64,000 nt of DNA from Gordonia sihwensis NBRC 108236. GTDB lineage: Bacteria; Actinomycetota; Actinomycetes; Mycobacteriales; Mycobacteriaceae. Below the pieces are notes generated by a model, which searched no databases, was not told the DNA's origin, and worked only from the letters and a program-made list of their open reading frames with translations. Positions 20,763 to 39,767 of this stretch are shown piece by piece (the stretch's first letter is position 1; every line of letters begins with the position of its first letter). The stretch is taken from the NCBI RefSeq assembly GCF_000333035.1, contig NZ_BANU01000001.1, positions 245,152 to 309,151 of the forward strand, written 5' to 3'. The translations under genes and the position numbers were made by a program.

Positions 20763-20835
20763 GCCCCTATAGCTCAGTTGGTAGAGCTACGGACTTTTAA
20801 TCCGCAGGTCGTAGGTTCGAGCCCTACTGGGGGCA
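20763..20835 (+). tRNA. tRNA-Lys(TTT)
   Basis: 73-nt cloverleaf: acceptor GCCCCTA/TGGGGGC, D-arm GCTC...GAGC, anticodon TTT at 20796-20798, T-arm GTAGG-TTCGAGC-CCTAC, discriminator A. Its 3' half is the left attachment core, so the gene stays functional after integration. Confidence 0.97.
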
Positions 20836-21128
20836 CTGCCAGAGAGACCCCCGTCCGGCCCATCAGGGCTGGCGGGGGTTTCTTTGATGCCGGTCGTGAT
20901 GTACGTGAACGAAATCCCGGTCGCCTCGCAGATCTGGTCGATCAGGTCGAGGGTGAACTCCACGTGACCGGTCATGCGGCGGGAGAGTGCGCCCTGGGTC
21001 ATGTCGATGCGCCGCGCTACTTCGCTGATCGAGATGCGCAGCTCGGCAAGTGCTCCACGAAGGCGACGCGCAGCAGCTTCTGATCGTGACTCGTCCCGGT
21101 GCCCGTCTACTACCTGAAATGTCGTCAT
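20787..21128 (-). CDS. Immunity repressor, integrated (short) form; attL core lies inside its 3' end
   Basis: A 113-aa HTH protein (helix-turn-helix about residues 34-54, ISISEVARRIDMTQGALSRR), similar in layout to the Cro-like protein across the divergent promoter. The start is ATG 21128, 7 nt after TAATGT; a more distal TTG (21164) coincides with the -35 and is not a start. The last codons read through the attL core and end at TAG (20789-20787) inside tRNA-Lys, giving ...LRIKSP. In the circular phage the frame would instead continue into 62826-62773 and end ...SVEMELDAA (128 aa). Known parallel: repressors of mycobacteriophages BPs and Brujita, which are stable only after integration removes a degradation tag. 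Confidence 0.85.
   Translation of the reverse strand: MTTFQVVDGHRDESRSEAAARRLRGALAELRISISEVARRIDMTQGALSRRMTGHVEFTLDLIDQICEATGISFTYITTGIKETPASPDGPDGGLSGSAPSRARTYDLRIKSP
20798..20838. repeat. attL core
   Basis: 41 nt identical to 62829-62869, running from the third anticodon base of tRNA-Lys to 3 nt past its end. Identity extends six more bases to the left (20790-20795) after two mismatches at 20796-20797. Confidence 0.95.
20845..20880 (+). terminator. Terminator for tRNA-Lys supplied by the prophage
   Basis: ACCCCCG and CGGGGGT arms around an inner GCCC/GGGC stem, followed by TTTCTTT on the plus strand. It lies antisense within the repressor coding region and replaces the host terminator, which has been displaced to 62873. 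Confidence 0.75.
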
Positions 21129-21135
21129 GCGCAGG

Positions 21136-21164
21136 ACATTACTCGCACAGCGAATAGTCGGCAA
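21136..21164 (-). promoter_or_regulatory. Repressor promoter (leaderless)
   Basis: Minus strand TTGCCG (21164-21159), 17-nt spacer, TAATGT (21141-21136), then 7 nt to the repressor ATG at 21128. Transcription should start at or next to the A of the ATG. Confidence 0.75.
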
Positions 21165-21207
21165 CGGCGTTCAGCTAACTAGGACACTCCGCGTTTGAAT
21201 TACATGC

Positions 21208-21236
21208 TTGACAGTCATTAGCTCAGCGCGTAGTAC
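21208..21236 (+). promoter_or_regulatory. Lytic/Cro promoter (leaderless)
   Basis: TTGACA (21208-21213), 17-nt spacer, TAGTAC (21231-21236), then 8 nt to the cro ATG at 21245. The operator-like repeat 21213-21232 covers the whole spacer, so a bound repressor would block RNA polymerase. Confidence 0.75.
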
Positions 21237-21274
21237 TAGGTGCCATGCACAGCGAGTCATTAGCTCAGCGCGTA
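21213..21274. repeat. Direct repeat pair, candidate repressor operators
   Basis: The 20-mer AGTCATTAGCTCAGCGCGTA occurs at 21213-21232 and again at 21255-21274, 42 bp apart (about four helical turns). The first copy lies in the promoter spacer, the second in codons 4-10 of cro. A weaker inverted match (TCAGCTAACT) lies at 21171-21180. Confidence 0.65.
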
Positions 21275-21493
21275 AGTGGAGCTGTCCAGCGGAACGTTCG
21301 GGCCGAGATGGCACGGAGTAAGGCCTCGCAGACCCGACTGGCGACGTCGCTCGGGTGGACTCAGGCGTCCCTGAGTCGCCGACTGAACGGGTACGTGCCC
21401 TTCACCGTCGAGGAGGTCGCTGCGATAGCGGAGTACCTCCGAGTCCCGGTAGCGGTGCTCCTCGGTGACGAAGTTCTCCGAGCTGGCGCCTGA
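21245..21493 (+). CDS. Cro-like HTH DNA-binding protein
   Basis: An 82-aa HTH protein (TRLATSLGWTQASLSRRLNG) with clear similarity to the repressor's DNA-binding part: both have LSRR.x.G followed by an amphipathic helix. It opens the rightward early region. Its ATG lies 8 nt after the -10, so leaderless. A role as Cro or excisionase-like switch protein is inferred from position. Confidence 0.75.
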   Translation: MHSESLAQRVSGAVQRNVRAEMARSKASQTRLATSLGWTQASLSRRLNGYVPFTVEEVAAIAEYLRVPVAVLLGDEVLRAGA

Positions 21494-21501
21494 TGCAGCG
21501 G

Positions 21502-21870
21502 CTACGGGGTAGGCGACGTCGGGACGTTGCTGCCGCTGGTGTTCACGCAGCGGCCCAGTGCGGCCATTCGACTGTTCGCGTCGTACGCGAGGGCGTAGAC
21601 CGCTTGTTCAGCCCCGATGTCGCACTGGCGGTCGAGGGCGGTCGCCGCCGAGAACGTGACCGCGTCGCCGAATCCGCCGCAACCGAGCGGGCCTGGCTCG
21701 ATGTAGAAGTTCGCCGACCAGTCGTCGTCCTGAACCTCGCAGAACGTCGTCGAAGTGTCGGCAGTCGTAACGACTGGCTCGATCCCTTCGCTGTTGCTGC
21801 ACCCTGCGATCCCGAATGCGGTGATCGCCAAACAGATTCCAGCCAACGCGGACTTCCTGCGGTTCGTCAT
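21502..21870 (-). CDS. Prophage-encoded lipoprotein (moron), function unknown
   Basis: Starting at ATG 21870 the protein begins MTNRRKSALAGICLAITAFG with lipobox IAGC, so it is exported and lipid-anchored. The mature part is small (about 100 aa) and Cys-containing (FCEVQDDDW, GPLGCGGFGD, RQCDIG, GRCVNT), consistent with two disulfides. It is the only minus-strand gene beside the repressor at this end, so it is probably expressed in the lysogen. TACGAT on the minus strand ends 6 nt before the ATG. A surface or superinfection-exclusion role is possible but unproven. Confidence 0.7.
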   Translation of the reverse strand: MTNRRKSALAGICLAITAFGIAGCSNSEGIEPVVTTADTSTTFCEVQDDDWSANFYIEPGPLGCGGFGDAVTFSAATALDRQCDIGAEQAVYALAYDANSRMAALGRCVNTSGSNVPTSPTP

Positions 21871-21968
21871 CGCCGGATCGTATGTCACCAAACGGACATC
21901 ACGCCCTGACGGGGCGTCAGTCCAGCCCGCTTCCATTTCTCGATTCACCCATTCGGAGGACAGCTGCC

Positions 21969-22244
21969 ATGCTCCCCATCTTGGATTCGATCACCCCGAC
22001 CACGTTCGTACTGTGCCTGATCGGCCTCGTCGCCTTCGCGTACTGGATGCCGACCGAGTCGGCCGATGACGTCGCGGACCGCGTGCCGCATCACCGCGCC
22101 CGGCAGTCGGGTGACTGGTGGCCTACGCACCGCGCCAAGGCGCGCAAGCAGAAGGCCCGAGCAGCGGCTCGCCGCCGTCGGCGCGCGCAGCTCCGTCGCG
22201 CTGCCGCCCGAGGCGTGGCTGTCCCTGCTGGTGGTGCGCGATGA
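21969..22244 (+). CDS. Small membrane protein with basic C-terminus
   Basis: 91 aa; one membrane segment near residues 9-26 (TPTTFVLCLIGLVAFAYW), then a very Arg/Lys/Ala-rich tail. GGAGG at 21956-21960 fixes the ATG at 21969. The stop overlaps the next possible start. Function unknown. Confidence 0.6.
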   Translation: MLPILDSITPTTFVLCLIGLVAFAYWMPTESADDVADRVPHHRARQSGDWWPTHRAKARKQKARAAARRRRRAQLRRAAARGVAVPAGGAR

Positions 22245-22708
22245 CCAAGACACGGATCACCCGTCGTTCGGTCGTCGCTTCGCTGCAGGGGCTCGTCAGC
22301 GCCGCGGCCGGCGGCGCGAACGGTGTCATCTGCCGCGCCGCTGACCTCGCCGCCCACTACGCAGCTACGGCCTCCCGCCCATCATTCGATGAAGGTGATC
22401 GGGGCGCCCGGCGTGAAGTAGATGCGATGCCAGGTATCGACTCCAGCGTCCCCGGGACCAGTGAGGGAGATCAGGGCACCAGTTCCCTGCCCGTTACTGA
22501 TGGCCTCGACGAGCTCGCGCGCGGCCTCGAAGACGGCAGGTTCCACCTGTTCGTAGGTGATCCCGTTGAAAACAATCGATGCCATGAATCTTCTCCTTGT
22601 TCGGGTTGTGGCGATTCGAGCGTAGGGGAGGCCGATCGTCGGCCGCGCGGGGATGCGCGGCCGACGAAGCCGGCCACCGCTCACGGCACCGAAGGCGGTG
22701 CGCGATGA
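22241..22708 (+). CDS. Doubtful hypothetical protein, overlaps an antisense gene
   Basis: The frame starts with an ATGA overlap at 22241 and ends with an ATGA overlap at 22705, so coupling is plausible, but no ribosome site is visible. The second half is low-complexity and lies antisense to the better supported gene at 22382-22585. Either only the first part is coding or the frame is fortuitous. Confidence 0.3.
   Translation: MTKTRITRRSVVASLQGLVSAAAGGANGVICRAADLAAHYAATASRPSFDEGDRGARREVDAMPGIDSSVPGTSEGDQGTSSLPVTDGLDELARGLEDGRFHLFVGDPVENNRCHESSPCSGCGDSSVGEADRRPRGDARPTKPATAHGTEGGAR
22382..22585 (-). CDS. Small hypothetical protein on the minus strand
   Basis: 67 aa beginning MASIVFNGITYEQVEPAVFE and ending ITFIE. 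The ATG at 22585 has AAGGAG 7 nt upstream, and the codon use is typical for the region with strong G/C third positions. No recognised domain. It is the only minus-strand gene inside the early block. Confidence 0.6.
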   Translation of the reverse strand: MASIVFNGITYEQVEPAVFEAARELVEAISNGQGTGALISLTGPGDAGVDTWHRIYFTPGAPITFIE

Positions 22709-23088
22709 CGGCGACGGTGACGGATCTGTCGGCCCGCCGCGCCGCAGCGGAGTCCGCGCAACTCGGTGAGCTTGCGCTCGCAGCACGTCGCGTCGACGCG
22801 GCGCACCGGCTGCTGGCGCGTCGCCGCCGCAAGCTCGACGTGAGGTTCTGCAACGGCGAGGGCACCCCGCTCCCGTGCGCGCCGGCCGAGTCCAGTGCCG
22901 AGCAGATCATCGTCACTGCGGCGGCATGGCCGGAGAACGGCGGGGACGTGCTGATCGGCACGGCAGGACCGCTGCCGCGAGCCGCGTTCGACTCCCCGGC
23001 CGGGACGCTCAACGCGACGTTGGCCGCGATCGGCGACCTCCTGACCCACGTGATCCTGCACCCCGCCGAGACCGGGGCGGTCACGTGA
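22705..23088 (+). CDS. Hypothetical early protein
   Basis: 127 aa, Ala/Arg-rich N-terminal helix (SARRAAAESAQLGELALAARR) then a mixed domain. Start and stop both overlap neighbours (ATGA, GTGA). No family recognised. Confidence 0.6.
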   Translation: MTATVTDLSARRAAAESAQLGELALAARRVDAAHRLLARRRRKLDVRFCNGEGTPLPCAPAESSAEQIIVTAAAWPENGGDVLIGTAGPLPRAAFDSPAGTLNATLAAIGDLLTHVILHPAETGAVT

Positions 23089-23366
23089 GCGTCAACGCGA
23101 CCAAGTGCAAGACGTGCGGCCAGCCGATCCGCTGGTGGCGCTCGAGCGTCCGCGAGGGCGGCTGGCTGTGCGTCGACTACTCGCCCGATGACGCGGGGAC
23201 CGTCAAGCGCGTCCCCACCCTCGACCCGGCGACCCGCAAACGCGTCATGTACGGACGCGCTCTGACGGGCACCGACCTCGCTGCCGCTCTCGCGGACGGC
23301 GAGCTCCTGTTCACCCTCCACTCCCGTACCTGCCACGGAAAGAAGGCCCACAGTGCCGAGCAGTAA
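23085..23366 (+). CDS. Small zinc-ribbon-like protein
   Basis: 93 aa with CKTCGQPIRWW near the N-terminus and HSRTCHGKK near the C-terminus, a likely Cys/His metal site. GTG start overlaps the upstream stop. Overlaps the ParB-like gene by 14 nt. Function unknown. Confidence 0.65.
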   Translation: MSVNATKCKTCGQPIRWWRSSVREGGWLCVDYSPDDAGTVKRVPTLDPATRKRVMYGRALTGTDLAAALADGELLFTLHSRTCHGKKAHSAEQ

Positions 23367-24777
23367 TCAGGTCGCCCTCGACCGCATCCATCCGCACCCC
23401 GACAACCCGCGCCGCGACGCCGAGTCCGTCGACACGCTCGCAGCGTCGATCAAGGCGCAGGGCGTCCTGCAGGCCATCACGATCGCGCCGCACCCGTCCG
23501 GCGCCGACGACACGTGGATCGTGATCGACGGCCACCGCCGCTGCGCGGCCGCGAAGGCACTCGGCCTCGACACGGTGCCGTGCATCATCGACGAGGGTCT
23601 CACCGATCCGGCCGACCAGATCGCCGCCATGCTCGCCACCGCCCGCGAGCGCGAGCCGCTCTCCGCGGCAGAGGAGGCCGCGGGCGTCCAGGCGATGCTC
23701 GACCTCGGCGAGTCCGTCGCGACCATCGCAGGCCGCACGGGCATGTCCAAGAGCAAGGTCCGTCAGCGCGCCAAGGTCGGCTCGCTGCCCGCGGAACTGC
23801 TCGACAAGATCCACACCCACGCCGTCACCCTCGCCGACGCGGAGTTCATCGCGACTCACAAGGAGTACCGCGACGAGCTCGAGGAGAAGCTCGGCACCGC
23901 TGACTGGCCGGCACGTCGGCAGCTGATCGTGAACCGCGTCGAGCGTCTGGAACGAATCAAGGCCCAGATCGCCGCAGCCAAGAAGCTCGGCGCCGAAGCC
24001 GCCGACTCGTTCGCCGAGGGAATGGACGCGGCGGCGGAAAGGGCAGGCGTGCCACGTAGCCGCGTGGGAATGGATCGGGCCCTCGCGTGGAGCCAGGCCG
24101 CTTTCGAGTCCCTGACCGACGAGGAGCGCGAACTCGCATTCGTCACCGCGGACCAGTACAACCCCAACCTCTCGATCTATGTCTTGAGGCTGCACGCCGA
24201 CCTCAGCGACGAGCCCTCGACCGACTCGACGCCGCAGGACGAGAGCGACCGGGACGAGGTCGACTCGACACCGGCCGAGCCCGACCCGGAAGAGACCGCA
24301 CGCTTTGAGGCCGAGCAGCTCGAGCGCGACCAGCTCACCGCCGCGACCGACGTCCGCACCAGTTTCCTCCGCACCGCCCCGGAGTCGACCCGCGCGAAGT
24401 TCTTCGGCCGTCTTCTCGCTCTCAACCCACCCACGGACGGATTCTGGATCGACTTCTCCAAGCTGCCCGAGTTCCAGGACGTCGACTACGACGACTTCCT
24501 GGAGGCGATCGCACAGTGGTTCACCGAGGTCTCGCCGGTCGACTTCGCGTGGGAGTCCGCGATCAGCTGCGCCCACGACATCGGTGACATGTGGCTCCGG
24601 AGTTCCCCGAGGATCGCGGCGGGACGGTCACCTGCCGTGGCACACGAGGCTGTCGCGTACGTGGACGTGCTGCGCGAGATGGGTTACGTCCTCTCCGACA
24701 TCGAGCAGGCCATCCTCGACGCCTACAACGCAACGATCCTCGCCACCATCGGCAGCGACGACGGAGACGACGAGTGA
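23353..24777 (+). CDS. ParB/Srx-type nuclease/CTPase-domain protein with HTH
   Basis: A 474-aa protein. The N-terminal ParB-like domain reads LDRIHPHPDNPRRD and WIVIDGHRRCAAAKALGLDTVPC (the GHRR phosphate-binding motif), followed by AAEEAAGVQAMLDLGES and an HTH (VATIAGRTGMSKSKVRQRAK). An acidic linker (about residues 275-320) leads to a C-terminal helical part. No ParA partner is present, so a plasmid-style partition role is unlikely; a DNA-binding regulatory or replication role is more plausible. GTG start. Confidence 0.8.
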   Translation: MPSSNQVALDRIHPHPDNPRRDAESVDTLAASIKAQGVLQAITIAPHPSGADDTWIVIDGHRRCAAAKALGLDTVPCIIDEGLTDPADQIAAMLATAREREPLSAAEEAAGVQAMLDLGESVATIAGRTGMSKSKVRQRAKVGSLPAELLDKIHTHAVTLADAEFIATHKEYRDELEEKLGTADWPARRQLIVNRVERLERIKAQIAAAKKLGAEAADSFAEGMDAAAERAGVPRSRVGMDRALAWSQAAFESLTDEERELAFVTADQYNPNLSIYVLRLHADLSDEPSTDSTPQDESDRDEVDSTPAEPDPEETARFEAEQLERDQLTAATDVRTSFLRTAPESTRAKFFGRLLALNPPTDGFWIDFSKLPEFQDVDYDDFLEAIAQWFTEVSPVDFAWESAISCAHDIGDMWLRSSPRIAAGRSPAVAHEAVAYVDVLREMGYVLSDIEQAILDAYNATILATIGSDDGDDE

Positions 24778-25082
24778 AGCGCACCAGGTTCCTCAGCGGC
24801 AAGCCCCGCCAGAACGGGCCCGACGTCGTGCCGTTCCCGCGGCCGGGCTGCGCCGTCACGATCCCCACACCGGAGCGCAACCGCCGGCGCGTACTCGGCA
24901 ACGGCATCCGTGCGATCGACTCTCAGCACGTGTGGGACGAGGTGATGCGTAGGTGGGCAGCCGAGTACCACGAGCTCCGCCCATTCGTTCCCGGGTCTGC
25001 AGCGCACAGCATCGATCGCGACCGCCCCTACGTCGTCCGCGTTAGCCCAGCAAGCAGCTTCCGGGGGGTGGTGGGAGTATGA
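24774..25082 (+). CDS. Hypothetical early protein
   Basis: 102 aa, basic N-terminus (VKRTRFLSGKPRQNG). GTG overlaps the ParB-like stop and its own stop overlaps the next ATG. No domain recognised. Confidence 0.55.
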   Translation: MKRTRFLSGKPRQNGPDVVPFPRPGCAVTIPTPERNRRRVLGNGIRAIDSQHVWDEVMRRWAAEYHELRPFVPGSAAHSIDRDRPYVVRVSPASSFRGVVGV

Positions 25083-25882
25083 CCCCGATCATCGGGTCGA
25101 CGATCCTCGAAGCCACCGTCGACACGGAATCCTTCCTCTGCGCGATCGCCGCAGTCATCCCGCACGCGGGACGCAAGGCGGAGTCCGCGCACCTGTACCG
25201 CCTCCGACTGCATCTCGATCACCCGGACTCGATGACGGTCACCGCATCGGACGGGTACTCCGCCGCCGCAGCACGCGTCTCACTCATCGCGCTCCACGGC
25301 GACATCGCGGCGAATCCGTGCATCGACATCTCGCCCGCCGACGTCGCGAAGATCCGCGCGGTTTTCCACAAGAAGAAGAAAGCCGACGTCGACGATGAGG
25401 GCCTCTTGCAGATCCGCAAGGCCGTCGAGATGCACCCGGAACCTGCGCCCGACGTCGCCGACCGAGAGGAGACAGACACCGCCGAGCCCGAGCTGGTGCC
25501 GGTGTACTACGTCCACCTCTCCGACGTGTCCGGGATGATCCCCGGCGAGACGCTAGAGCTCCCGATGCTCCCGCCCCACGAGCACGCCCCGAACGTGCCG
25601 CGCATGATCGCCCGCGAACTCGGCACCGCGACTGGGATGGTCGAGTCCTTCGGGATCCTGCCGGACCTGATCACCCGATTCACCGCGGCGGCGAAGGCCT
25701 ACGACGCGAACCTCATCGCGTCTGTCGCCGATGACGAGTCCGCGATGGTCGTCGTCCGCTGCAGCGAGGACTTCATCGGCGTCGCGCACCCGCAGCGCTA
25801 CTCGGAACTGTCGCTGGCAGCGCAGCGCGACTGGCTCCTGGCATGGCGTGAGCAGTTCGCGAGCTTGCCTGATCCGGAATGA
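25079..25882 (+). CDS. Putative DNA sliding-clamp-like protein
   Basis: 267 aa. The first ~75 residues resemble a beta-clamp N-terminal domain (TVDTESFLCAIAAVIPHAGR, then LDHPDSMTVTASDGYSAAAARVSL, the TATDGHR-like strand), and the C-terminal part ends in alternating hydrophobic strands (ANLIASVADDESAMVVVRC). A phage-encoded DnaN-like processivity factor is the best guess; the protein is shorter than three clamp domains. Assignment rests on pattern only. Confidence 0.45.
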   Translation: MTPIIGSTILEATVDTESFLCAIAAVIPHAGRKAESAHLYRLRLHLDHPDSMTVTASDGYSAAAARVSLIALHGDIAANPCIDISPADVAKIRAVFHKKKKADVDDEGLLQIRKAVEMHPEPAPDVADREETDTAEPELVPVYYVHLSDVSGMIPGETLELPMLPPHEHAPNVPRMIARELGTATGMVESFGILPDLITRFTAAAKAYDANLIASVADDESAMVVVRCSEDFIGVAHPQRYSELSLAAQRDWLLAWREQFASLPDPE

Positions 25883-25888
25883 CCGCCC

Positions 25889-26116
25889 GTGCCCGCAGAT
25901 CCGGACGCCTGGTGGTTCTCGCTCCCGTACGAGCGGCGAGTGCAGATCTGCCGATGGGTCAACGCCGACAAACACCAGACGCATCCCGAGGTCGAGGGCC
26001 AGTCCGAGATCTTCGACCTCCTCGACACCCACACGAAAGGCTCACGAAATGAGCAACCTCATGGTCGCCCGCGACGCAGACCGGCGCCGCCCTGGCCCCG
26101 TCCGCAACGACGCTGA
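25889..26116 (+). CDS. Small hypothetical protein
   Basis: 75 aa, GTG start 6 nt after the previous stop. The first 50 residues (PADPDAWWFSLPYERRVQI...) look protein-like; the last 22, which overlap the next gene, are low-complexity Arg/Pro. Confidence 0.5.
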   Translation: MPADPDAWWFSLPYERRVQICRWVNADKHQTHPEVEGQSEIFDLLDTHTKGSRNEQPHGRPRRRPAPPWPRPQRR

Positions 26117-26390
26117 CCCCAAACCGATGACCGGGCAGCCGACCTGGTGCCGCCGTATCACCGCACCGCACGCGCAGTTGCCCAGCGGCCTCGACCCGGA
26201 CGGCAACCGCACCATCATCCCGGCCGGCCAGCCGATCCGCCTCGTACACGCGGGGTTCGACTCGCTCGGCCGCGACGTCTGGACGATCCCCGCCGACCAG
26301 TGGTGGCCCGGCGACACGGTCATCGTCGGACCGATCCCGAGCGGCGTCGTCATCCGCCACGAGACCCACCGCGAGGAGACAGCAGCATGA
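26049..26390 (+). CDS. Hypothetical early protein
   Basis: 113 aa from ATG 26049, with PTWCRRITAPHAQL and WWPGDTVIVGPIPSGVVIRH. The short beta-rich pattern suggests a small barrel, but no family is recognised. Stop overlaps the next ATG. Confidence 0.6.
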   Translation: MSNLMVARDADRRRPGPVRNDADPKPMTGQPTWCRRITAPHAQLPSGLDPDGNRTIIPAGQPIRLVHAGFDSLGRDVWTIPADQWWPGDTVIVGPIPSGVVIRHETHREETAA

Positions 26391-26824
26391 TCAACCAGAC
26401 CTTCGACCTCCGCTTCGTCACCCGCCGCAACGGGCAGGAGGAGCTGCTGTGCGAGTTCGACCCGACGACGGTCACCTACCGCGTCCTCGGGCTCCCGAAC
26501 TCGCGCTTCGGGATCCTCGACGTCGCCGAAGAACGCAAGGCCACCGTCGAGTGCCCGTGCCCCACGTGCGCGCAGCGCCGCTCGGCGGACCTGCGGCTCC
26601 ACATTGCAGCGCAGGCGGTCATGTCGAACCCGGCCAGCCCGGCAGTCGTCACAGACGGCGTCGAGATCCGCAACGCCGAGCGCGCCAAGTCAGCCGGCGC
26701 CGCCGCCGACCACATCCTCACCTCGCTGCTGTCTCGACTCCGACACCTCACCAAGGAGGTCGAGACCCTGATGGCCGCAAACAACATCACGCCCGCACAC
26801 TCGGAAGGACATCACCCGCAATGA
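26387..26824 (+). CDS. Hypothetical protein with CxC/C zinc-knuckle motif
   Basis: 145 aa. ECPCPTCAQRR around residue 57 is a possible metal site; the C-terminal half is helical (SLLSRLRHLTKEVETLMAAN). ATGA overlaps on both sides. Function unknown. Confidence 0.6.
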   Translation: MINQTFDLRFVTRRNGQEELLCEFDPTTVTYRVLGLPNSRFGILDVAEERKATVECPCPTCAQRRSADLRLHIAAQAVMSNPASPAVVTDGVEIRNAERAKSAGAAADHILTSLLSRLRHLTKEVETLMAANNITPAHSEGHHPQ

Positions 26825-27174
26825 GCACCGATGAGACCCGCCAGAAGCTCTACGACGGCGCCTCCGAGGCGTACACCGCCGCGGTAGTCGCCGCCGGCTG
26901 CCCGACCCTCTCGCCCGACTCGACACCGTGGGACGAGGGAATCGCCGCCGCCGTCGACCACGTCCTTACAGAGATTCTGCGGAAGCCCACGGCTACCGGC
27001 TTCGTGGCCGTCGAGACGGCCTGGCAGCGGTCCGCGCAGAAGGTCATCGACGCCGCGAACCAGCTGATGCTCGACCTCGTTACCGGGGACGCCGACCCGC
27101 GCATCCTCGCGCAGGCACTGATCGACGGCGGCTTCGACAAGACGGCCGCGGGTGCGGGTGGTGGCCGTGGCTGA
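26821..27174 (+). CDS. Hypothetical early protein
   Basis: 117 aa, acidic and helical (STDETRQKLYDGASEAYTAA). Coupled to both neighbours by start/stop overlap. No family recognised. Confidence 0.55.
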   Translation: MSTDETRQKLYDGASEAYTAAVVAAGCPTLSPDSTPWDEGIAAAVDHVLTEILRKPTATGFVAVETAWQRSAQKVIDAANQLMLDLVTGDADPRILAQALIDGGFDKTAAGAGGGRG

Positions 27175-27454
27175 GCACATCAAACGCGTCTCGAAGTACG
27201 AACTGACCCGACTGCGGACTGTCGCCGCAGCGATGCGCGAGGACGGCCGAGATGGGATCGCCGGTGAGTACACCGGCCGCGCCGACGAAATCGAGAAGCA
27301 CTTAGACCACCTCGCCGGGATCAAGAACGCGACCATCAATGGCTCCGCGCTCGATGACCATGCTGCGCGTATCGCGGACTGGCTGATCGACAACGGCTGG
27401 ACCCCGCCCGAGGACATCCTGCTCTTCGCCGAGGAGGGTGCGGACCGTGACTGA
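27167..27454 (+). CDS. Hypothetical early protein
   Basis: 95 aa; GTG at 27167 overlaps the previous stop, with in-frame GTGs at 27152 and 27161 as alternatives. Helical, charged (HIKRVSKYELTRLRTVAAAM). No family recognised. Confidence 0.55.
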   Translation: MAEHIKRVSKYELTRLRTVAAAMREDGRDGIAGEYTGRADEIEKHLDHLAGIKNATINGSALDDHAARIADWLIDNGWTPPEDILLFAEEGADRD

Positions 27455-27536
27455 GGTGATCGAGCTGCACTGCACGACGACTGCCGCTGGAATCCCCATC
27501 GGCCTCATGGCTGACCTCGAGCGAGGTGCGCGATGA
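27447..27536 (+). CDS. Very small coupled reading frame
   Basis: 29 codons (VTEVIELHCTTTAAGIPIGL...). Its GTG overlaps the preceding stop and its TGA overlaps the next ATG, exactly bridging two genes. Such overlaps make translation likely even though function is unknown. Confidence 0.4.
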   Translation: MTEVIELHCTTTAAGIPIGLMADLERGAR

Positions 27537-27745
27537 CCGGCACTGACCCCGTCGCTCCGACGTGGCCGCTGGGACACTGCGGCGACCCCGGACCCTCTGA
27601 CGCGCACTGCACCCTCGACGTCGGGCATCGCTACTCCTGCTACGACGGCTCCGCCGACGTGTCGTTCAACGCCCGGCAGGACTTCCGCCACGACTGCGAC
27701 GATCCGCGCTGCCGCACACCGCACTTCACGAACGAAGGGGACTGA
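27533..27745 (+). CDS. Small Cys/His-rich protein
   Basis: 70 aa with LGHCGDPGPSDAHCTLDVGHRYSC-type spacing of Cys and His, and HDCDDPRCRTPHF at the end. A metal-binding fold is likely. ATG overlaps the upstream stop. Confidence 0.55.
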   Translation: MTGTDPVAPTWPLGHCGDPGPSDAHCTLDVGHRYSCYDGSADVSFNARQDFRHDCDDPRCRTPHFTNEGD

Positions 27746-27747
27746 CC

Positions 27748-28029
27748 ATGCCCACTGACGAACCCCGCGACCCCGCGATCGCCGCCGCTGAGCGCTGGTG
27801 GGACAAGCAGGGAGCTACCGAGCAGGAGCGGGAGGATTCGGTTGACTGCTGGTCTGACGTGGCTCAGGGGGCCGCCCGCGAGGCCCTCGCGCCGATCCGC
27901 GCCTGGTATCTGGCGTTCGATCCAGCCGCGCCACTGAACGAGTCAATGGACGACCTCGTCCGCCTCCTCTGGTCGGACGCCGAACTCACCATGCACGACG
28001 ACACCAACGAGGAGCTGAACCATGCCTGA
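27748..28029 (+). CDS. Hypothetical early protein
   Basis: 93 aa, acidic, helical (AIAAAERWWDKQGATEQERE). Start 2 nt after the previous stop. No family recognised. Confidence 0.55.
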   Translation: MPTDEPRDPAIAAAERWWDKQGATEQEREDSVDCWSDVAQGAAREALAPIRAWYLAFDPAAPLNESMDDLVRLLWSDAELTMHDDTNEELNHA

Positions 28030-28069
28030 CTCCCGCTCGCACCGACCCTTCCGCCGCCAGGAGACTCCC

Positions 28070-28393
28070 ATGATCCGCACGACCATCGCCGCACTCGCCG
28101 CACTCGCCGCCACCACCTTGGGCGCGGGACTCGCCGCCGCGGACGACCCCGACACGCAGCCGGCCGCAATCGTCACCGTCAACGACGACGGATGGGCGAC
28201 CCACGCCATCACAGATGACGACGACACCGGCTACACCGCACCCGGCATCGAGCAGTGCCCGACCCCGAACGGTGCGACGGCCGCGTTCACCTCATACACC
28301 CCGGTCGACGTCGACGAGAACGGCGCGCCGATCTACGCCACGATCTGCCACTACGAGGACGTCAACATCACGTCCGTGCGACTGGACGGATAG
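28070..28393 (+). CDS. Small secreted protein
   Basis: 107 aa from ATG 28070: MIRTTIAALAALAATTLGAG followed by LAAADDP is a clear Sec signal peptide. CCAGGAG at 28057-28063 supports this start over the in-frame ATG at 28022. The mature part is acidic with two Cys (EQCPTPNG, TICHYED). An exported phage protein of unknown role. Confidence 0.65.
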   Translation: MIRTTIAALAALAATTLGAGLAAADDPDTQPAAIVTVNDDGWATHAITDDDDTGYTAPGIEQCPTPNGATAAFTSYTPVDVDENGAPIYATICHYEDVNITSVRLDG

Positions 28394-28399
28394 CGCAAC

Positions 28400-28843
28400 G
28401 TGAGCGAGACCATCAAGGTCCAGGTCGGCGTGTCCGATGAGGAGCTCCGCAAGTGGGCCGAATGGCACGTCGAGCACAACAATCACGGCGTCGCCGCGAT
28501 CCTGTACGCCGCGCTCGGCCAGTTCGACTCGATCGGAGACACTCTTCTTCGCACGCAGGCCGAGTTGGAGAAGCTCCGCGAGGGGGACTGGGCGAAGCTG
28601 TCCAGGAACCTCCACAACGCCGAGGTCGGGCGTGACAATCTGCGCGCCACTGTCGAGCGGGTGCAGGAAGCGAACGAGCGCGTCCACGCCCACCGCTTCG
28701 ATCTGGACTCGGCCGATGACGCAGCGCATGACGCATGGCTGGAATCACTCGGGGAGCGCCGCGTCGGCGGCCCGGACGCCTTCTACAACGGCGTCGAGTT
28801 CGCGCACCGCCGTATCCGCCGCGCCCTCGACGGGGAGGCGTGA
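28400..28843 (+). CDS. Hypothetical protein, coiled-coil-like
   Basis: 147 aa, GTG start. Residues 40-100 are charged and helical (RTQAELEKLREGDWAKLSRN). No family recognised; overlaps the next start by one base. Confidence 0.6.
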   Translation: MSETIKVQVGVSDEELRKWAEWHVEHNNHGVAAILYAALGQFDSIGDTLLRTQAELEKLREGDWAKLSRNLHNAEVGRDNLRATVERVQEANERVHAHRFDLDSADDAAHDAWLESLGERRVGGPDAFYNGVEFAHRRIRRALDGEA

Positions 28844-28947
28844 TGGGCCGGTTGCCGTTGGTGTGGCGCGGCTGGCTGCGTGACGTGGCGTACGACGTCG
28901 CGATCCTGGCGCTCATTTGCACCGTCGTCTGGTTTGTGTCCCGGTGA
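28843..28947 (+). CDS. Small single-pass membrane protein
   Basis: 34 aa: MGRLPLVWRGWLRDVAYDVA then a hydrophobic segment ending VVWFVSR. GGGGAGG precedes the ATG. The following 28948-29025 holds no gene apart from the AAGAGAGG ribosome site of the next one. Confidence 0.5.
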   Translation: MGRLPLVWRGWLRDVAYDVAILALICTVVWFVSR

Positions 28948-29025
28948 GCGCCCGCAGCCGCGCGAGAGCGCCCCCCTGCCTGCGAGTGTTCCGGTTTCGT
29001 CGTCAAAGAAGAGAGGCATCTGCCT

Positions 29026-30264
29026 GTGTGGGCACGCTATGGAGACACGTCGGCGTTTCATCCCCTGCCGATGAACGTGCTGGAGCATCCGGAGCTCGAC
29101 GATCGTCTCCTCAACGAGGTGTTCGGCTTCTTTGCCCGGTGCTCGACCCAGGCTGCGGCGCACCTGACGGACTACGTCATCACTCGAGGAACCGCGGTCA
29201 TGATCGCAGGACCGACCCGGGCTCAGACGATGATCGACGTCTGCGTGTTCGCCGGGCTGATGACCGAGCGCGAGTATGGCGACGGCGTCAAGGTGTACAA
29301 GCTCGTCGACGACGAGCCGGATTTCCTGCACCTGCGGCTGAAGAAGGACATCGACTGGGAGCGTCAGCGCAAGGCGGACGCGAACCGACCCGCCCTCGTC
29401 GTACCGGTGCGCCTCCGAGATGGAGACGCCTGCCGGTGGTGCGGGAAGGTCGTCGATTGGCTCGACCGGAAATCCGGTCGGGCTGGCACGTACGACCATC
29501 TGGAGCCGGGAGAGCCGGCCACCGTGGACACGTACGTCGTCTGCTGCAAGACGTGCAATTCCTCGCGCCAGGACGGGTCGCTCCCGACCGGTGTCGAGGA
29601 GCTGCTCGACGCCCCGACAGAACCGCTCTACTCCACGACCACCGTCGCGTGGCTCGCCGAGAACCGCTGGCGCGCCAAGAACGGTCTACCAGTCCCGACC
29701 GCGACCCCACCGGCCGACATGGCCAAGTATCTCGTCCGCGTGCCCGGCAGCCAGCCGGACACCACCCCCGCATCCCAGGACGACCCGCAGCCCGCGGGCG
29801 ACACGTCAGAGCACGCAGCCGCAGGCGCGATGCCGACGTCGGGCGCAGCAGCCACAGGCGCAGCGCCGGGGATGCCGTCTCAACCCGATCTCCACACCGG
29901 AGATCCCCAGTCCCCGGGCAAGGCAGCAGCCGCAGGCGCGCCACCGGGACCGCGAGCAGCAGCCACCGGCGCGCCCACTGAGACACAGAGGCCTGCAGCC
30001 GCAGGCGCGGCCTCACCGAGCACGGCTGCCGCAGGCGCCAGCTCCCCGGCCCCGGCCGACACAGACGGACGAGACGCCCCAGGACCAGACAGAAATCAAC
30101 CTGATCTGACAGATACGAAGGGTCCAGGATCTGTCGTGTCTGGTCGGGACGGGTCGGGTCGGGTCGGGACGGGTAGCGAATCTCTACCACCTCCTCACCG
30201 TGACAGTTCCTCACGTAGCCGAGGCCGCCGTGGCGGCCGTCGTGCTCGCCGATCGAAGGGTTAG
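29026..30264 (+). CDS. HNH endonuclease-like protein with long Ala/Pro-rich repeat tail
   Basis: 412 aa. Residues 1-120 form a helical N-terminal domain (FHPLPMNVLEHPELDDRLLN). Residues 128-190 hold an HNH-type site: DACRWCGKVVDW, YDHLEPGEP, VVCCKTCNSSRQDG, i.e. two Cys pairs with the DH core. From about 235 on the protein is a low-complexity tail with repeated AAAGA/AATGA units and a basic SRSRGRRGGRRARRSKG end. GTG start with AAGAGAGG upstream. Early position suggests DNA metabolism or packaging. Confidence 0.65.
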   Translation: MWARYGDTSAFHPLPMNVLEHPELDDRLLNEVFGFFARCSTQAAAHLTDYVITRGTAVMIAGPTRAQTMIDVCVFAGLMTEREYGDGVKVYKLVDDEPDFLHLRLKKDIDWERQRKADANRPALVVPVRLRDGDACRWCGKVVDWLDRKSGRAGTYDHLEPGEPATVDTYVVCCKTCNSSRQDGSLPTGVEELLDAPTEPLYSTTTVAWLAENRWRAKNGLPVPTATPPADMAKYLVRVPGSQPDTTPASQDDPQPAGDTSEHAAAGAMPTSGAAATGAAPGMPSQPDLHTGDPQSPGKAAAAGAPPGPRAAATGAPTETQRPAAAGAASPSTAAAGASSPAPADTDGRDAPGPDRNQPDLTDTKGPGSVVSGRDGSGRVGTGSESLPPPHRDSSSRSRGRRGGRRARRSKG

Positions 30265-30272
30265 TACTACCC

Positions 30273-30449
30273 GTGAAGAAGAAGATCACCATCCGCAAGG
30301 ACCGCAGCTCAGGTCAGTGGACTGCTCGAGTGTGCCAGGTGAACTCGCTCGGCGAGCAGTACCTGGTCTCGCGAGCAGTGGGCCCGAGCTTCGTGCGGCT
30401 CGTCGAGTTCCTCGCCGCTTCGTACGAGTGCGAGGGTGGTGCCGAATGA
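30273..30449 (+). CDS. Small basic protein
   Basis: 58 aa from GTG 30273: KKKITIRKDRSSGQWTARV looks like a three-stranded sheet start, followed by a helix (FVRLVEFLAASYE). Stop overlaps the next ATG. Function unknown. Confidence 0.5.
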   Translation: MKKKITIRKDRSSGQWTARVCQVNSLGEQYLVSRAVGPSFVRLVEFLAASYECEGGAE

Positions 30450-31291
30450 GCACCGCACCCGCGGTCGTCCGCCGACCTGTCGACGCCTCGATCGACTACC
30501 AGCGGCGCCTGGCGGCGAAGGCCCGCGACGCTCGCCGTGACCTCGAGTACCTCGCGGCGGCGTGGCCGTACGTCGGTGCGCTCCGCGAGCGAGGCACCCC
30601 GCGCCGGTGGGTCCAGCACGATCAGCGGCGGGCATCGCGGATGCTGCGCGTCCGCGAGATCGAGCGGCGCGGTCTGCGTGGCGTGGCGCGGCCGACGCCG
30701 GCCGATGTGTCGGTCCTCGACGTCCTGTCGCAGATCGCATCGGTCGCGGAGTGGATCGTCCGCGAGATGACGCATGTGCTCCCGCAGTACCGCCCCGAGA
30801 TCTGGCTGCCGGCCAGAGCGGCGTCGGCCGACCCTCGACCGTGGCTGCGTCTGGCGACTCGACTCCTCCCGCAGGCTGACGCGGCGACCCGCTCCGACGA
30901 CGAGCCGATCGTCATGTGGATCGAGGCGCGACTGCATCCGGTGATCACGACGGCCGCACGGCTGCTGGGCGATGCTCGCGACGGGCAGGAGCTGGCCGGA
31001 CTGTGCCCGTGGTGCGGTGGCCGCACCAGCAAGGGCGTCGGGTACCCGACGATGCGGATCCACTACCCGGCCGAGCTCGACCTGACGCAGCCGCTCGACC
31101 CCGACGTCTCGCCCATCGAGCGCCTCGCCGCAGGGCAGGCCGAGCCGCTCATCGTCTGCCACGGCCTGCTCTGCGACCCGCCCCGGGACGCGTGCGGCCT
31201 GGACTGGCACGGACAGCCGGCGTGGGCGATGCGTGAGTGGGACTGGCTCGCGAAGCGCCTGCACCCCGTCGCGGGCAGGGCCGACCGATGA
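30446..31291 (+). CDS. Hypothetical protein with C-terminal zinc ribbon
   Basis: 281 aa. The first two thirds are helical and Arg-rich; then LCPWCGGRTSKGVGYPTM and CHGLLCDPPRDACGLDWHG supply a Cys4-type ribbon. Common in actinophage early regions, with no established role. ATG overlaps upstream stop. Confidence 0.6.
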   Translation: MSTAPAVVRRPVDASIDYQRRLAAKARDARRDLEYLAAAWPYVGALRERGTPRRWVQHDQRRASRMLRVREIERRGLRGVARPTPADVSVLDVLSQIASVAEWIVREMTHVLPQYRPEIWLPARAASADPRPWLRLATRLLPQADAATRSDDEPIVMWIEARLHPVITTAARLLGDARDGQELAGLCPWCGGRTSKGVGYPTMRIHYPAELDLTQPLDPDVSPIERLAAGQAEPLIVCHGLLCDPPRDACGLDWHGQPAWAMREWDWLAKRLHPVAGRADR

Positions 31292-31380
31292 CCGCCGCCT
31301 TCTTCGCCTGGTTCTCCTGCACCTCCGCGGCCTGGTCGGCCGTGACCACCCTCATCGTCTGGAAAGGACGGAACCGATGA
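31288..31380 (+). CDS. Very small membrane protein
   Basis: 30 aa (MTAAFFAWFSCTSAAWSAVT..., one hydrophobic span then KGRNR). Both ends overlap neighbours by ATGA, which supports translation. Confidence 0.45.
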   Translation: MTAAFFAWFSCTSAAWSAVTTLIVWKGRNR

Positions 31381-32168
31381 CCACCACACCCTCCGCCACT
31401 TACGTCACCGCGATCTCAGTCGACGAGCTGTTCGCCGACCCCGAGTACCAGCGCGACCTCGACCCGAACCGCGCCAAGGCGATGTCGGTCAAGTGGGAAC
31501 CGCGGCTGGTCGGCACGCTGGAGGTCTCCGACCGTGGAGAGACCAGCGAGCCGCGATACGCGGTCATCAACGGTCAGCACCGCATGGCCGCTGCACGCCT
31601 TCTCGATCCCACGATGGCGCTGCCGTGCACGGTCCACAGCGGGCTGACTGTCCAGCAGGAGGCGGCGCTGTTCTGGGACATCGACCGCACCACCAAGAAG
31701 CTGTCGAACTGGGATCGCTGGTACGCGCGGCGCGCTGCCGGAGACAAGGACGTCGCGTCGATCGAGGCAGTGTGCACCGAGTTCGGGTACCGAGTGAGCC
31801 ACAGTCCAGTCGAGAACGCGCTGCAGTGCTGCAGCGCTCTCGAGTTCGTGTACCGGCGCTGCGATCTGCAGACGCTGCGCGATGTTCTGGAGTTCGTCGG
31901 CGACGTCTGGCCGGCCGATCCGGAAGCACGCAAGGCGAACATCATCAAGGGCCTCGCGTTGGTGCTGTTCGATTACCGGGGCCAGGTGCACACCGGACGG
32001 TTGGCCGATGTGCTGTCGAGCGTGACGCCGTCGCAGCTGGTCGCGCGGGCGCACGAACTCAAGGCGCGGGGATGGGACGGAAGCATACCGAAGCTAACGC
32101 AGACGGCAGCGCTGATCGCCTACAACGGCACGTGCCGCCGCGAGCAGAAGGTGGAGCTGCCGGCATGA
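31377..32168 (+). CDS. ParB-like nuclease-domain protein (DUF6551-type)
   Basis: 263 aa. TAISVDELFADPEYQRDLDP and YAVINGQHRMAAARLL (GQHR motif) form a ParB-like N-terminal domain; FWDIDRTTKKLSNWDRWYAR follows. Second ParB-like protein of the prophage, without the HTH of the first. Probably DNA-binding; the exact role is unknown. Confidence 0.7.
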   Translation: MTTTPSATYVTAISVDELFADPEYQRDLDPNRAKAMSVKWEPRLVGTLEVSDRGETSEPRYAVINGQHRMAAARLLDPTMALPCTVHSGLTVQQEAALFWDIDRTTKKLSNWDRWYARRAAGDKDVASIEAVCTEFGYRVSHSPVENALQCCSALEFVYRRCDLQTLRDVLEFVGDVWPADPEARKANIIKGLALVLFDYRGQVHTGRLADVLSSVTPSQLVARAHELKARGWDGSIPKLTQTAALIAYNGTCRREQKVELPA

Positions 32169-32434
32169 GCACGATCGTGGAGTTCATCGAGGCACGACTG
32201 AAGGATGAAGCCGCGGCGGCTGAGTCGATGCCGGACCCGGCCAAGCATCGGCGGATCGTGGACGCGCTGGCCATGATGAGCGTGCCCATCGTCGAGCATC
32301 TCGAGGCGCGCAATCTCCCGCCGACCGACAACCCGCTCGCGGCCGGGCTGCTTGTGATCGCGCAGGTCTGGACCGAGCACCCCGACTTCGATGCGCAGCG
32401 CTGGTTCCCACGCATGACTGGGCAGGTGAAGTGA
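32165..32434 (+). CDS. DUF6221-like protein
   Basis: 89 aa beginning MSTIVEFIEARLKDEAAAAE, the N-terminus typical of a small actinobacterial/actinophage family of unknown function. Coupled to both neighbours. Confidence 0.55.
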   Translation: MSTIVEFIEARLKDEAAAAESMPDPAKHRRIVDALAMMSVPIVEHLEARNLPPTDNPLAAGLLVIAQVWTEHPDFDAQRWFPRMTGQVK

Positions 32435-32595
32435 TGGACCCGATACGCCATCTGCTGACGCCGCAGGAGAGACGCGAGCACGGCCGGTGCATGGACTGCG
32501 AGTGGCATCCGCCGACGCAGGGCCACCACGATCTGTGCCCGGCACGACCGGGAGCGAAGCCGACGCGTCGAGGTCGAAGGACGGTTGCACGGTGA
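32434..32595 (+). CDS. Small zinc-finger-like protein
   Basis: 53 aa with RCMDCEWHPPTQGHHDLC, a C-x2-C...H-H...C array, and a basic tail. ATG overlaps the preceding stop. Function unknown. Confidence 0.5.
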   Translation: MDPIRHLLTPQERREHGRCMDCEWHPPTQGHHDLCPARPGAKPTRRGRRTVAR

Positions 32596-32616
32596 GTTAT
32601 CCACAGGGCATACTGA
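32593..32616. repeat. DnaA-box-containing repeat, copy 1
   Basis: TGAGTTATCCACAGGGCATA followed by CTGA; contains an exact DnaA-box consensus TTATCCACA at 32597-32605. Nearly identical to 39693-39715. The stretch to 32677 is otherwise empty. Confidence 0.6.
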
Positions 32617-32677
32617 GGGCGCTGGTTCCCGCGTGCCCGCAGCAGGGCGCGCGGGATCTGTTGTCTCAGGGGTCAGC

Positions 32678-33202
32678 ATGAGCCGCGCCCGGTTGCGGGT
32701 CTGCTCGGAGCCCGGCTGCCCGACCCTCAGTGACCGCCCCCGCTGCCCCAAGCACCAGGCACAGGTCGACAGGCATCAACGCCGCACTACCCCCACCAAG
32801 GTCAACCGCGGCCCCGACATTCAACGCCGCGCCGCCGCCGTCGCCGCCCACCGCGCCACCCGTGGCGATTGGTGCCCCGGCTTCGAACGCGCACCCCATG
32901 CCTCGGCGGACCTCACCGCCGACCACGTCCACGACCAGCAGGCAGGAGGAGCGTGGGACGGCGAGCTCGAGGTGATGTGCCGCTCCTGCAACAGCCGCAA
33001 AGGCAGGCGCGTCCAGCTCGCGCTCGCGGCTTACACCACCACCCCCGACTCGGTCAAATCGGACACTCGAACCGTTCGAACATCGTTCGAACAGGGGACA
33101 CCTGGGGGCCACCCCCTGGCGAGGCCGAAGCACCGACGCCGCCGGGGAGGGCTGAAAAAGGTGCGGAGGGTTCAAGACGATCCGGGAGGCACTCAGTGCT
33201 GA
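32678..33202 (+). CDS. HNH endonuclease
   Basis: 174 aa. N-terminal Cys cluster (RVCSEPGCPTLSDRPRCPKH), then the HNH core LTADHVHDQQAGG and VMCRSCNSRKGRRVQ. HNH proteins encoded just upstream of terminase usually assist DNA packaging in cos-type siphophages. A similar N-terminus occurs in many actinophage HNH proteins. Confidence 0.85.
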   Translation: MSRARLRVCSEPGCPTLSDRPRCPKHQAQVDRHQRRTTPTKVNRGPDIQRRAAAVAAHRATRGDWCPGFERAPHASADLTADHVHDQQAGGAWDGELEVMCRSCNSRKGRRVQLALAAYTTTPDSVKSDTRTVRTSFEQGTPGGHPLARPKHRRRRGGLKKVRRVQDDPGGTQC

Positions 33203-33543
33203 TGCGGCTCACCCCGACGCACGTCGAACGGCTGCGCGCCGCACAGCGCGGCGCCGGCGTTCAGAAGTACCTGATCATCCCGGACAAAGAAGGGTGCCCC
33301 ACCATGTCGAGTAATCCCAGTACCGTGCACCTGCTGTCGCTGTTCAGCTACATGCACCTGCCGCCTTCGCTGCAGATCGTCTCACGCAAGTTTCACGACC
33401 TCGCACATGATCTCGTATCGACCTACGGTGAGGGTCCCGAGACCTCAGCGATGCTGCGAAAGCTCGTCGAGGCGAAGGACTGCGCGGTGCGCCAGGCAGT
33501 GATCACCGATCCCGGTCTCACCGCCGACCGGAACGTCGACTGA
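33196..33543 (+). CDS. Putative Acb2/Tad1-type hairpin protein (anti-CBASS sponge candidate)
   Basis: 115 aa from GTG 33196 (GGGAGG 6 nt upstream); an internal ATG at 33304 would give a 79-aa core. The core reads FSYMHLPPSLQIVSRKFHDL, then GPETSAMLRKLVEAKDCAVR. This matches the two-helix Acb2/Tad1-domain pattern: aromatic-Y-H-PP, helix, GP-x2-S-x3-R-K-x2-EA-x-D-x2-R. Acb2 proteins bind cyclic nucleotides and blunt CBASS defence; many actinophage members are annotated only as DUF. Function is inference from the pattern. Confidence 0.55.
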   Translation: MLMRLTPTHVERLRAAQRGAGVQKYLIIPDKEGCPTMSSNPSTVHLLSLFSYMHLPPSLQIVSRKFHDLAHDLVSTYGEGPETSAMLRKLVEAKDCAVRQAVITDPGLTADRNVD

Positions 33544-33758
33544 TGTCCGACGATCCGCTGATGGTCGGCGACTGCGGCGACGTCGTCGCGGCGGACCCGT
33601 ACGCCGACATCTGCGACAGGGTGACTGCGTACGTCGAGGAGATGCTGGACGCGTACTTCGTCGCGGTACTGGGGCACTCTCCGACTGCGATTCGTGGCGA
33701 CGGCTGGCTGCGCCCGCTACTCGGCTCGTACGAGCTGGCAGACAGGCAGGGCCCGTGA
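33543..33758 (+). CDS. Small hypothetical protein
   Basis: 71 aa, acidic (MSDDPLMVGDCGDVVAADPY). Starts on the last base of the previous stop. No family recognised. Confidence 0.5.
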   Translation: MSDDPLMVGDCGDVVAADPYADICDRVTAYVEEMLDAYFVAVLGHSPTAIRGDGWLRPLLGSYELADRQGP

Positions 33759-33898
33759 GGCTCTCGCTGTGTCTGTTCGGGCACGAGCTCGTCGCGCTCG
33801 AGCTCTGCTGGGATGACGGCGACTCGGACGGCGTCGATGCGGCGCTGTCGAGTGATACCACGCCGGTCGGCTTCGCGCTGATGGGCGACGACGGATGA
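33755..33898 (+). CDS. Very small hypothetical protein
   Basis: 47 aa (VRLSLCLFGHELVALELCWD...), GTGA/ATGA overlaps on both sides. Strand-rich, acidic. Function unknown. Confidence 0.4.
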   Translation: MRLSLCLFGHELVALELCWDDGDSDGVDAALSSDTTPVGFALMGDDG

Positions 33899-34134
33899 CG
33901 GCGGGCCGTGCGTGGGCGCTCCTTGTCGCGGCCGTCTTGTGGTGGGAGCGGCAGTGCTACCGGTCGGGTCGGCCGGAGCATCTGCTGTCGAGGGGGATGG
34001 ACAGGGCTCGGAACCGCAACCGCGTGATGCGGTGTGTGCTCGACGGCGCGGTGATCGCGACGGCGTTGCACCTCCTGCGGTGGATCCCTGACCGTCTCGA
34101 TGTCTATCAAGCGGTGCGCTGGACGCGCCGCTGA
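33895..34134 (+). CDS. Small hypothetical protein
   Basis: 79 aa, hydrophobic N-terminus (MTAGRAWALLVAAVLWWERQ) and basic remainder. May be membrane-associated. Last gene before the terminase block. Confidence 0.5.
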   Translation: MTAGRAWALLVAAVLWWERQCYRSGRPEHLLSRGMDRARNRNRVMRCVLDGAVIATALHLLRWIPDRLDVYQAVRWTRR

Positions 34135-34145
34135 TTCACGCTGGC

Positions 34146-34190
34146 TCGGCGAGATGCCGGGCCGCTCAATTGATGTCGGCGAGATGCCGG
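34146..34190. repeat. Tandem hairpin-forming repeat upstream of small terminase
   Basis: TCGGCGAGATGCCGG occurs at 34146-34160 and 34176-34190, 30 bp apart; each can fold as CGGC-GAGAT-GCCG. The stretch 34135-34208 has no gene. A packaging (cos/pac) recognition site is a candidate role. Confidence 0.5.
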
Positions 34191-34208
34191 CGGATAGGTG
34201 GTTTCGTC

Positions 34209-34712
34209 ATGGCTGGACACGGAGGTGCCCGTAATCGCTCTGGACCGACGCCGTCGCCGACGTCGGCGCGGTCGGACGCCCGCGATGTGCGCGCGAAGAA
34301 GCTCACGGTGGGCGGCTACGCCGGTGACTTCCCTCCGCTGTCGAACTTTCTGCCGGACGGTACCGAGCGCGAGGGCGTGGTGTGGGCGTCGCTCTGGCGG
34401 ACGCCGCAGGCGGGGCAGTGGATCAAGGAGGCGTGGCGTCACCGAGCTGTCGCGATGTACGTGCGGTGGCTGGTGCGCGCCGAGGACCCGGAGGCGACGG
34501 CCGCGACGATCACCGCGGCGCAGCGACTCGCCGATCAGATCGGCATGACACCGGCAGGGCTCCGCGAGAACGGTTGGCTGATCGTCGATGACGACGCGAC
34601 GACCAACCCGGAGCAGCAGCAGAAGCAGGAGGCGGTGAGGCAGAGCCACGGCGCCGCCCGGACAAACGGTGGTGGCCGGCGGATGCGAGCGGTGCCCGAT
34701 GGCGAAGGCTGA
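34209..34712 (+). CDS. Terminase small subunit
   Basis: 167 aa. MAGHGGARNRSGPTPSPTSA N-terminus, then FPPLSNFLPDGTEREGVVWASLWRTPQA-type central domain and a helical part (TAATITAAQRLADQIGMTPA), typical of actinophage small terminases. It recognises phage DNA for packaging. Overlaps the large subunit by 14 nt. Confidence 0.75.
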   Translation: MAGHGGARNRSGPTPSPTSARSDARDVRAKKLTVGGYAGDFPPLSNFLPDGTEREGVVWASLWRTPQAGQWIKEAWRHRAVAMYVRWLVRAEDPEATAATITAAQRLADQIGMTPAGLRENGWLIVDDDATTNPEQQQKQEAVRQSHGAARTNGGGRRMRAVPDGEG

Positions 34713-36376: not shown

Positions 36377-36391
36377 AAGGGACCACCCCAT

Positions 36392-37819: not shown

Positions 37820-37825
37820 CGCGAC

Positions 37826-39448: not shown

Positions 39449-39695
39449 GTGGGCCGAGGAGATTCTCGCCGCCCACGTCGATGACATCAGCCCTGCCGAC
39501 GTGACGCTGGCGCGATCGCTCATCGATGACGGCGACGGATGGCTCGCAGCTTATGACCTCCTTGGAAGCGGTGCCGACGAAGGCTGGCTGACGGCCGCCG
39601 AAGCAGAGACAGCTCTCGCATTCGCACGCGCAGGGAAGTTCGGAAAGTTCTCCGCTGGCGCCGAGAATGACGCGCGCAGCGTGCTTGCATCCTGA
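39420..39695 (+). CDS. Candidate immunity protein for the MuF-linked toxin
   Basis: 91 aa, acidic (AHVDDISPADVTLARSLIDD), mostly helical. The GTG at 39420 overlaps the toxin gene's last 29 nt, the tight arrangement of toxin-immunity pairs. No family recognised; the role is inferred from position and acidity. Two terminators follow directly. Confidence 0.55.
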   Translation: MRKVLLSTTEWAEEILAAHVDDISPADVTLARSLIDDGDGWLAAYDLLGSGADEGWLTAAEAETALAFARAGKFGKFSAGAENDARSVLAS

Positions 39696-39715
39696 GTTAT
39701 CCACAGGCATACTGA
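39693..39715. repeat. DnaA-box-containing repeat, copy 2
   Basis: TGAGTTATCCACAGGCATAC followed by TGA, differing from 32593-32616 by one missing G. Exact TTATCCACA at 39697-39705. It starts at the stop codon of the immunity gene. Confidence 0.6.
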
Positions 39716-39727
39716 TGTCGGTGGTTA

Positions 39728-39754: not shown

Positions 39755-39767
39755 TCGTCGTTTCTAG

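Follow-up and report, generated by a model that had tools for sequence, protein, structure and literature searches.

Introduction

In phage BPs, attP lies within the repressor gene, and experiments distinguished a tagged repressor of 136 aa from a stable one of 103 aa (PMC4557955, available part). The review PMC9262239 gives, in the part available, the same outline of this switch, termed integration-dependent immunity, and adds that the integrase is tagged as well. Among Gordonia phages, the predictions of 2016-2017 include Obliviate, with its -DAA tag (PMC4929511). Bowser and Schwabeltier are also predicted to use the switch (available portion of PMC4982277), as is roughly every second tyrosine-integrase phage for which attP has been mapped (available portion of PMC5559632); according to the same portion of PMC5559632, attB-8, a tRNA-Lys site, is used by GMA5, GRU3, Jeanie and McGonagall. 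Prophages of M. abscessus use the switch too, as stated in the accessible text of PMC8092301.

The locus described here belongs to Gordonia sihwensis NBRC 108236 and was analysed within a stretch of 64,000 nucleotides, called the window below. It contains an apparently complete prophage of about 42 kb in a tRNA-Lys gene. Integration-dependent immunity is the best reading of its repressor region and is well supported by the sequence, from which the stability of the two repressor forms is predicted. BPs, likened here by description and not by sequence, has in common with this locus attP in the repressor gene and the long tagged and short stable forms, but uses a tRNA-Arg site (PMC9262239, available part). 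Obliviate likewise has attP in the repressor gene, a -DAA end and predicted integration-dependent immunity (PMC4929511), but a tRNA-Thr site and a different repressor.

A sequence-only reading of this region had proposed that the switch is here extended to a new host and a new att site. Neither part is new: the switch was already predicted for Gordonia phages (PMC4929511), the tRNA-Lys site is in print for them (PMC5559632, in the part available), and repressors annotated in Charlie and in Gordonia phages contain the same core. This locus thus adds a well documented example to a known class of switch.

Prophage and attachment sites

The target of integration is tRNA-Lys (TTT), located with ARAGORN at 20763..20836 (+), which forms attL and is intact there. 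A direct repeat of 50 bp, found by repeat comparison and identical at 48/50 positions, 41 bp of them perfect and consecutive, bounds the prophage. Its left copy, the attL core (20789..20838, +; identical to the other copy over 20798-20838), is the 3' part of the tRNA gene, and its right copy is the attR core (62820..62869, +). The crossover would have taken place inside 20798-20838. The 4.14-Mb genome holding the window has just two copies of a 34-bp piece of the att core, and a single prophage copy. The host flanks match a single Gordonia MAG contig, L039 (left 78%, right 82%), which represents the empty site, with tRNA-Lys followed by tRNA-Glu, -Asp and -Phe and no prophage between; in the window the latter three lie beyond attR.

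The prophage (20839..62819) has PHROGs matches for terminase, portal, protease, capsid, tape measure, minor tail and endolysin genes, and the reading frames for integrase, lysis, head and tail proteins are open. An HNH endonuclease-like protein and two ParB-like proteins are also encoded (29026-30264, 23353-24777 and 31233-32168, +). Between the tail genes and int lies an open frame of 305 aa (60422-61339, +) with a weak GAF match below the cutoff; candidate defence or toxin-antitoxin genes occupy the same place in some Gordonia clusters and in cluster N mycobacteriophages (PMC5559632, available portion). On the host side, right of attR, a stretch with a repeated motif rich in VDKPV/VEKPV-type codons was seen by eye at 63582-64000 (+) and continues past the window edge.

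Repressor gene and its two forms

The prophage form of the repressor, an HTH_3 protein of 113 aa ending RIKSP, is encoded on the minus strand (20787..21128, -). The ATG at 21128 is taken as its start, with support from the MTT beginning common to family members, and its TAG stop (20787-20789) lies inside tRNA-Lys, the attL core consisting of codons of the gene. When the prophage ends were joined in silico as a circle, the frame ran to 128 aa ending VEMELDAA; the tail codons of this long form, ending ELDAA plus stop, remain at attR (62773..62828, -). The gene of a tyrosine integrase ending SIPPAA (61698..62624, -), recognised by its frame and domain matches, starts in the joined circle 148 nt past the stop of the long repressor, on the same strand. 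Diverging from the repressor is a cro-like gene with an HTH domain match (21245..21493, +), whose counterparts are labelled excise in some relatives. The sequence-only reading had anticipated this layout, namely the attL core in the last codons of a repressor that stops in tRNA-Lys at 113 residues, a frame continuing past the core in the circular phage, and the order cro, repressor with attP, int; all of it was borne out.

The locus combines an attP core within the repressor frame, a tRNA attB kept whole, a prophage repressor stopped at attL, an ssrA-like tag on the phage form, a tagged integrase downstream on the same strand and a divergent cro-like gene with operator-like repeats, all features of integration-dependent immunity systems. 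The host tmRNA tag is ADSNQRDYALAA and also ends AA (ALAA). Integration very probably swaps the -LDAA tail for the stop in the tRNA gene, so that a 128-residue repressor, predicted to be targeted by proteases, gives way to a stable 113-residue form predicted to confer immunity. The long repressor and the integrase would be degraded via their AA ends, the repressor would act at two CATTAGCTCAGCGCGTA repeats, and immunity would arise solely after integration.

These two repeats, detected by repeat search, are predicted operators at 21216..21232 (+) and 21258..21274 (+), the second inside the start of the cro-like gene. Two copies were found where 0.09 are expected, and there is no other in the window when up to 3 mismatches are allowed. 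In PhrostedPhlake and Gudmit, the same repeats or ones with a single mismatch occur at matching places. No consensus promoter was detected by scanning.

Comparison with related phages

Phage genomes were searched for repressors overlapping the tRNA-Lys core, as the sequence-only reading had advised, and the first 60 of 362 matches listed include Charlie, other Mycobacterium phages, Ewald, Dogfish, Meyran and Phishy. The integrase, in turn, has its relatives at 64-69% identity (best 60 of 646) in Charlie-type Mycobacterium phages and in the Gordonia phages Ewald, Dogfish, Meyran, Bunker and Phishy; among the matches listed, the repressors of these phages carry the tRNA-Lys core found here. Charlie and its relatives (Charlievirus) are taken here to be cluster N. 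As in the present locus, the annotated immunity repressor gene of Charlie contains the tRNA-Lys core, among the matches listed, and int lies downstream on the same strand; the integrases are 64.5% identical and the Charlie repressor ends SAA. Charlie differs in an unrelated N-terminal part of the repressor, in reading the core in another frame, in an integrase that ends AVS, and in having no terminator-like hairpin by the score used.

Ewald, Phishy, Meyran and Dogfish (Gordonia phages, Nyceiraevirus in their records) share with this prophage the core in the repressor, the AA end and a related integrase, but their repressors are different, and three of them (Ewald, Phishy and Meyran) use the other frame of the core. 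Meyran, Ewald and Phishy also have virion-gene DNA in common with the prophage; of one 24.9-kb stretch, Meyran matches 27% and Nyceirae 23%, at about 75% identity. Among named phages, PhrostedPhlake and Gudmit of Gordonia have the repressors closest to this one (75% and 70%, respectively, over residues 1-84). Both have two near-identical operator-like repeats, a hairpin at the same place and a repressor with an AA end, as here, but their att cores are those of other tRNAs (29-30/50 matches to this core).

C-terminal ends of repressors and integrases

Ends were compared in 21 named phages with a repressor near an att core or with a published prediction, a sample that includes close relatives and some phages picked because they are named in papers. 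The repressor ends AA in 19 of the 21, VA in Butters and PA in UmaThurman. In contrast, an AA end was found in none of the 14 distinct family loci in which the repressor stops in an intact tRNA, L112 being left out because it shares its last 60 residues with another locus (Fisher's exact p 5e-8, relatedness ignored). For the remaining 12 family loci, L005, L006, L083, L114 and L127 end AA and L109 ends VA; the repressor runs to the record edge in L007, L106 and L117, and in L123, L125 and L128 it does not end AA and has no tRNA at its end. Integrases of relatives end AA or VA in 15/20 cases and VS or AS in 5/20 (Charlie, Butters, Redi, Xeno and Raymond7).

The tRNA-Lys core is read as GSNLGPADY or close to it in Charlie, Redi, Butters, Ewald, Phishy and Meyran, and as RARTWDLRI or RARTYDLRI in Dogfish, Bunker, IdentityCrisis and this prophage; both frame readings lead to AA or VA ends. 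That dissimilar tails on this core, in two frames, end AA would point to repeated selection of a degradation signal, and the pattern fits a history in which repressors were repeatedly grafted onto one site. Nyceirae and Bowser, whose repressors both end AA, have no tRNA-Lys core in the stretches compared (best 26/50), and an explanation of these two phages by the tRNA-Lys site was therefore dropped.

The core might overlap the repressor end by position alone, both forms being alike in stability and activity and the change of C-terminus neutral. In favour of this, composition-matched shuffles of the tail region leave the frame open for at least 15 codons past the core in 50% of cases, and in an AlphaFold model of the related L083 repressor, of low confidence (mean pLDDT 63.5) and supporting the remark on the tail alone, residues 80-121 are without confident structure, so that the repressor end may be dispensable for the DNA-binding fold. 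The same shuffles end AA in 0.7% of cases, however, against the 19/21 phages, in which the tails are dissimilar and follow the tRNA-Lys core in two frames as well as other tRNA cores, and against 0/14 for the tRNA-stopped forms; BPs, with the same layout, works as a switch by experiment (PMC4557955, in its available part). A neutral exchange is accordingly very improbable. A merely chance open frame was rejected on the AA end, its recurrence and the natural long protein P0001 described below; the length of the extension is no argument here, since half of the shuffles reach it.

Natural long and short forms

The 113-aa form, used as query against about 5.8 billion proteins, had 23 matches, of which 12 end AA. 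P0001 is a natural protein of 128 residues, encoded on a separate 1,886-bp contig, and is identical to the joined form at 127/128 positions, the sole change being I115V; a natural attP-type form of the repressor therefore exists. Among the same matches, P0002, P0005, P0011, P0013 and P0020 are long forms on the tRNA-Lys core, all ending AA, and P0004 and P0022 are short forms ending RTYDLRIKSP.

Further pairs of this kind were found. At the same tRNA-Lys core, the Rhodococcus-type repressor of L090 ends QRRAA, whereas L084-L089 and L025 are tRNA-stopped and end RIKSP. In an M. abscessus-type pair, phage phiGD21-1 ends DRIAA, whereas L113 ends YRLS inside tRNA-Thr. An integrase-like frame was observed downstream of the long repressor in L090. 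In another Gordonia genome (L011), a related repressor is stopped inside tRNA-Arg; its core is read as in phage PhrostedPhlake, and a hairpin with a six-T run lies at the matching place.

A decayed prophage that inherited the layout and no longer excises or switches would account for the difference of the att cores at 2/50 positions, but is the least probable explanation and a very improbable one, in view of the open integrase, lysis, head and tail genes and of the near-identical long-form protein on a separate contig.

Hairpin embedded in the repressor gene

Just past the end of the tRNA, a hairpin in tRNA sense (20844..20885, +), with a TTTCTTT run after its G-rich arm, coincides with repressor codons 82-95 and is a predicted terminator (-35.6 kcal/mol, z -7.4). 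A second one comes after the att core in the host DNA flanking attR (62870..62912, +; -36.1 kcal/mol, z -8.2) and is the predicted tRNA-Lys terminator of the empty site. A stricter terminator scan of 20700-21500 found none.

The repressor family comprises 26 loci, and 19 of them could be scored, that is, had a tRNA T-arm found inside the frame; L109, L115, L116, L117, L123, L125 and L128 could not. By a single scoring rule, a hairpin with a T-rich tail is present at this place in 9/19, namely in this prophage and in 8/18 others (L005, L006, L011, L106, L120, L121, L126 and L127), and 10/19 are negative. Other repressors have it in 3/18 cases: the Rhodococcus-type L090, Hedwig and, weakly at -13.2 kcal/mol, Obliviate; one of the 15 negatives among these, phiGD21-1, is a family member by sequence. 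With 9/19 in the family and 3/18 elsewhere, the hairpin does not characterise these switches in general.

As controls, other windows of the same genes scored in 4/159 cases and the opposite strand of the same segment in 2/19; natural host tRNA-Lys loci scored in 26/54. Synonymous recoding equalled the score of each hairpin positive in 0-2 of 200 draws, and for the family negatives 0-17 of 200 recoded draws got past the -12 kcal/mol threshold. A binomial value based on an assumed rate of 1.5% was set aside, since the controls do not establish that rate. Prescottella equi (L029) has a comparable hairpin after its tRNA-Lys, so that capture of the hairpin along with the tRNA end is possible.

It is an evenly balanced prediction that the linker codons of the repressor form, on the opposite strand, an intrinsic terminator replacing the one that the host tRNA gene lost on integration. 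In the lysogen the hairpin in codons 82-95 would end tRNA-Lys transcription and might shield the repressor gene from antisense read-through. A literature search of titles and abstract openings, with the original 2013 papers (Mol Cell; Bacteriophage) outside its scope, recognised no terminator inside such a repressor. PMC9476930, among the papers listed, has both 'integration-dependent immunity' and 'terminator', and the word 'terminator' is absent from the text available of PMC8092301, PMC9262239 and PMC9934374.

Implications

The locus is an integrated case of the switch, mapped on a Gordonia chromosome together with its two att ends and complemented by the empty site of a relative and a natural long-form protein. 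If the prediction of a terminator is true, one stretch of about 100 bp would combine the att core, the tRNA end, repressor codons with their stability switch, and a terminator blocking read-through from the tRNA into the repressor. This would explain how the tRNA gene at the landing site regains a transcript end and how the repressor stays free of antisense transcription.
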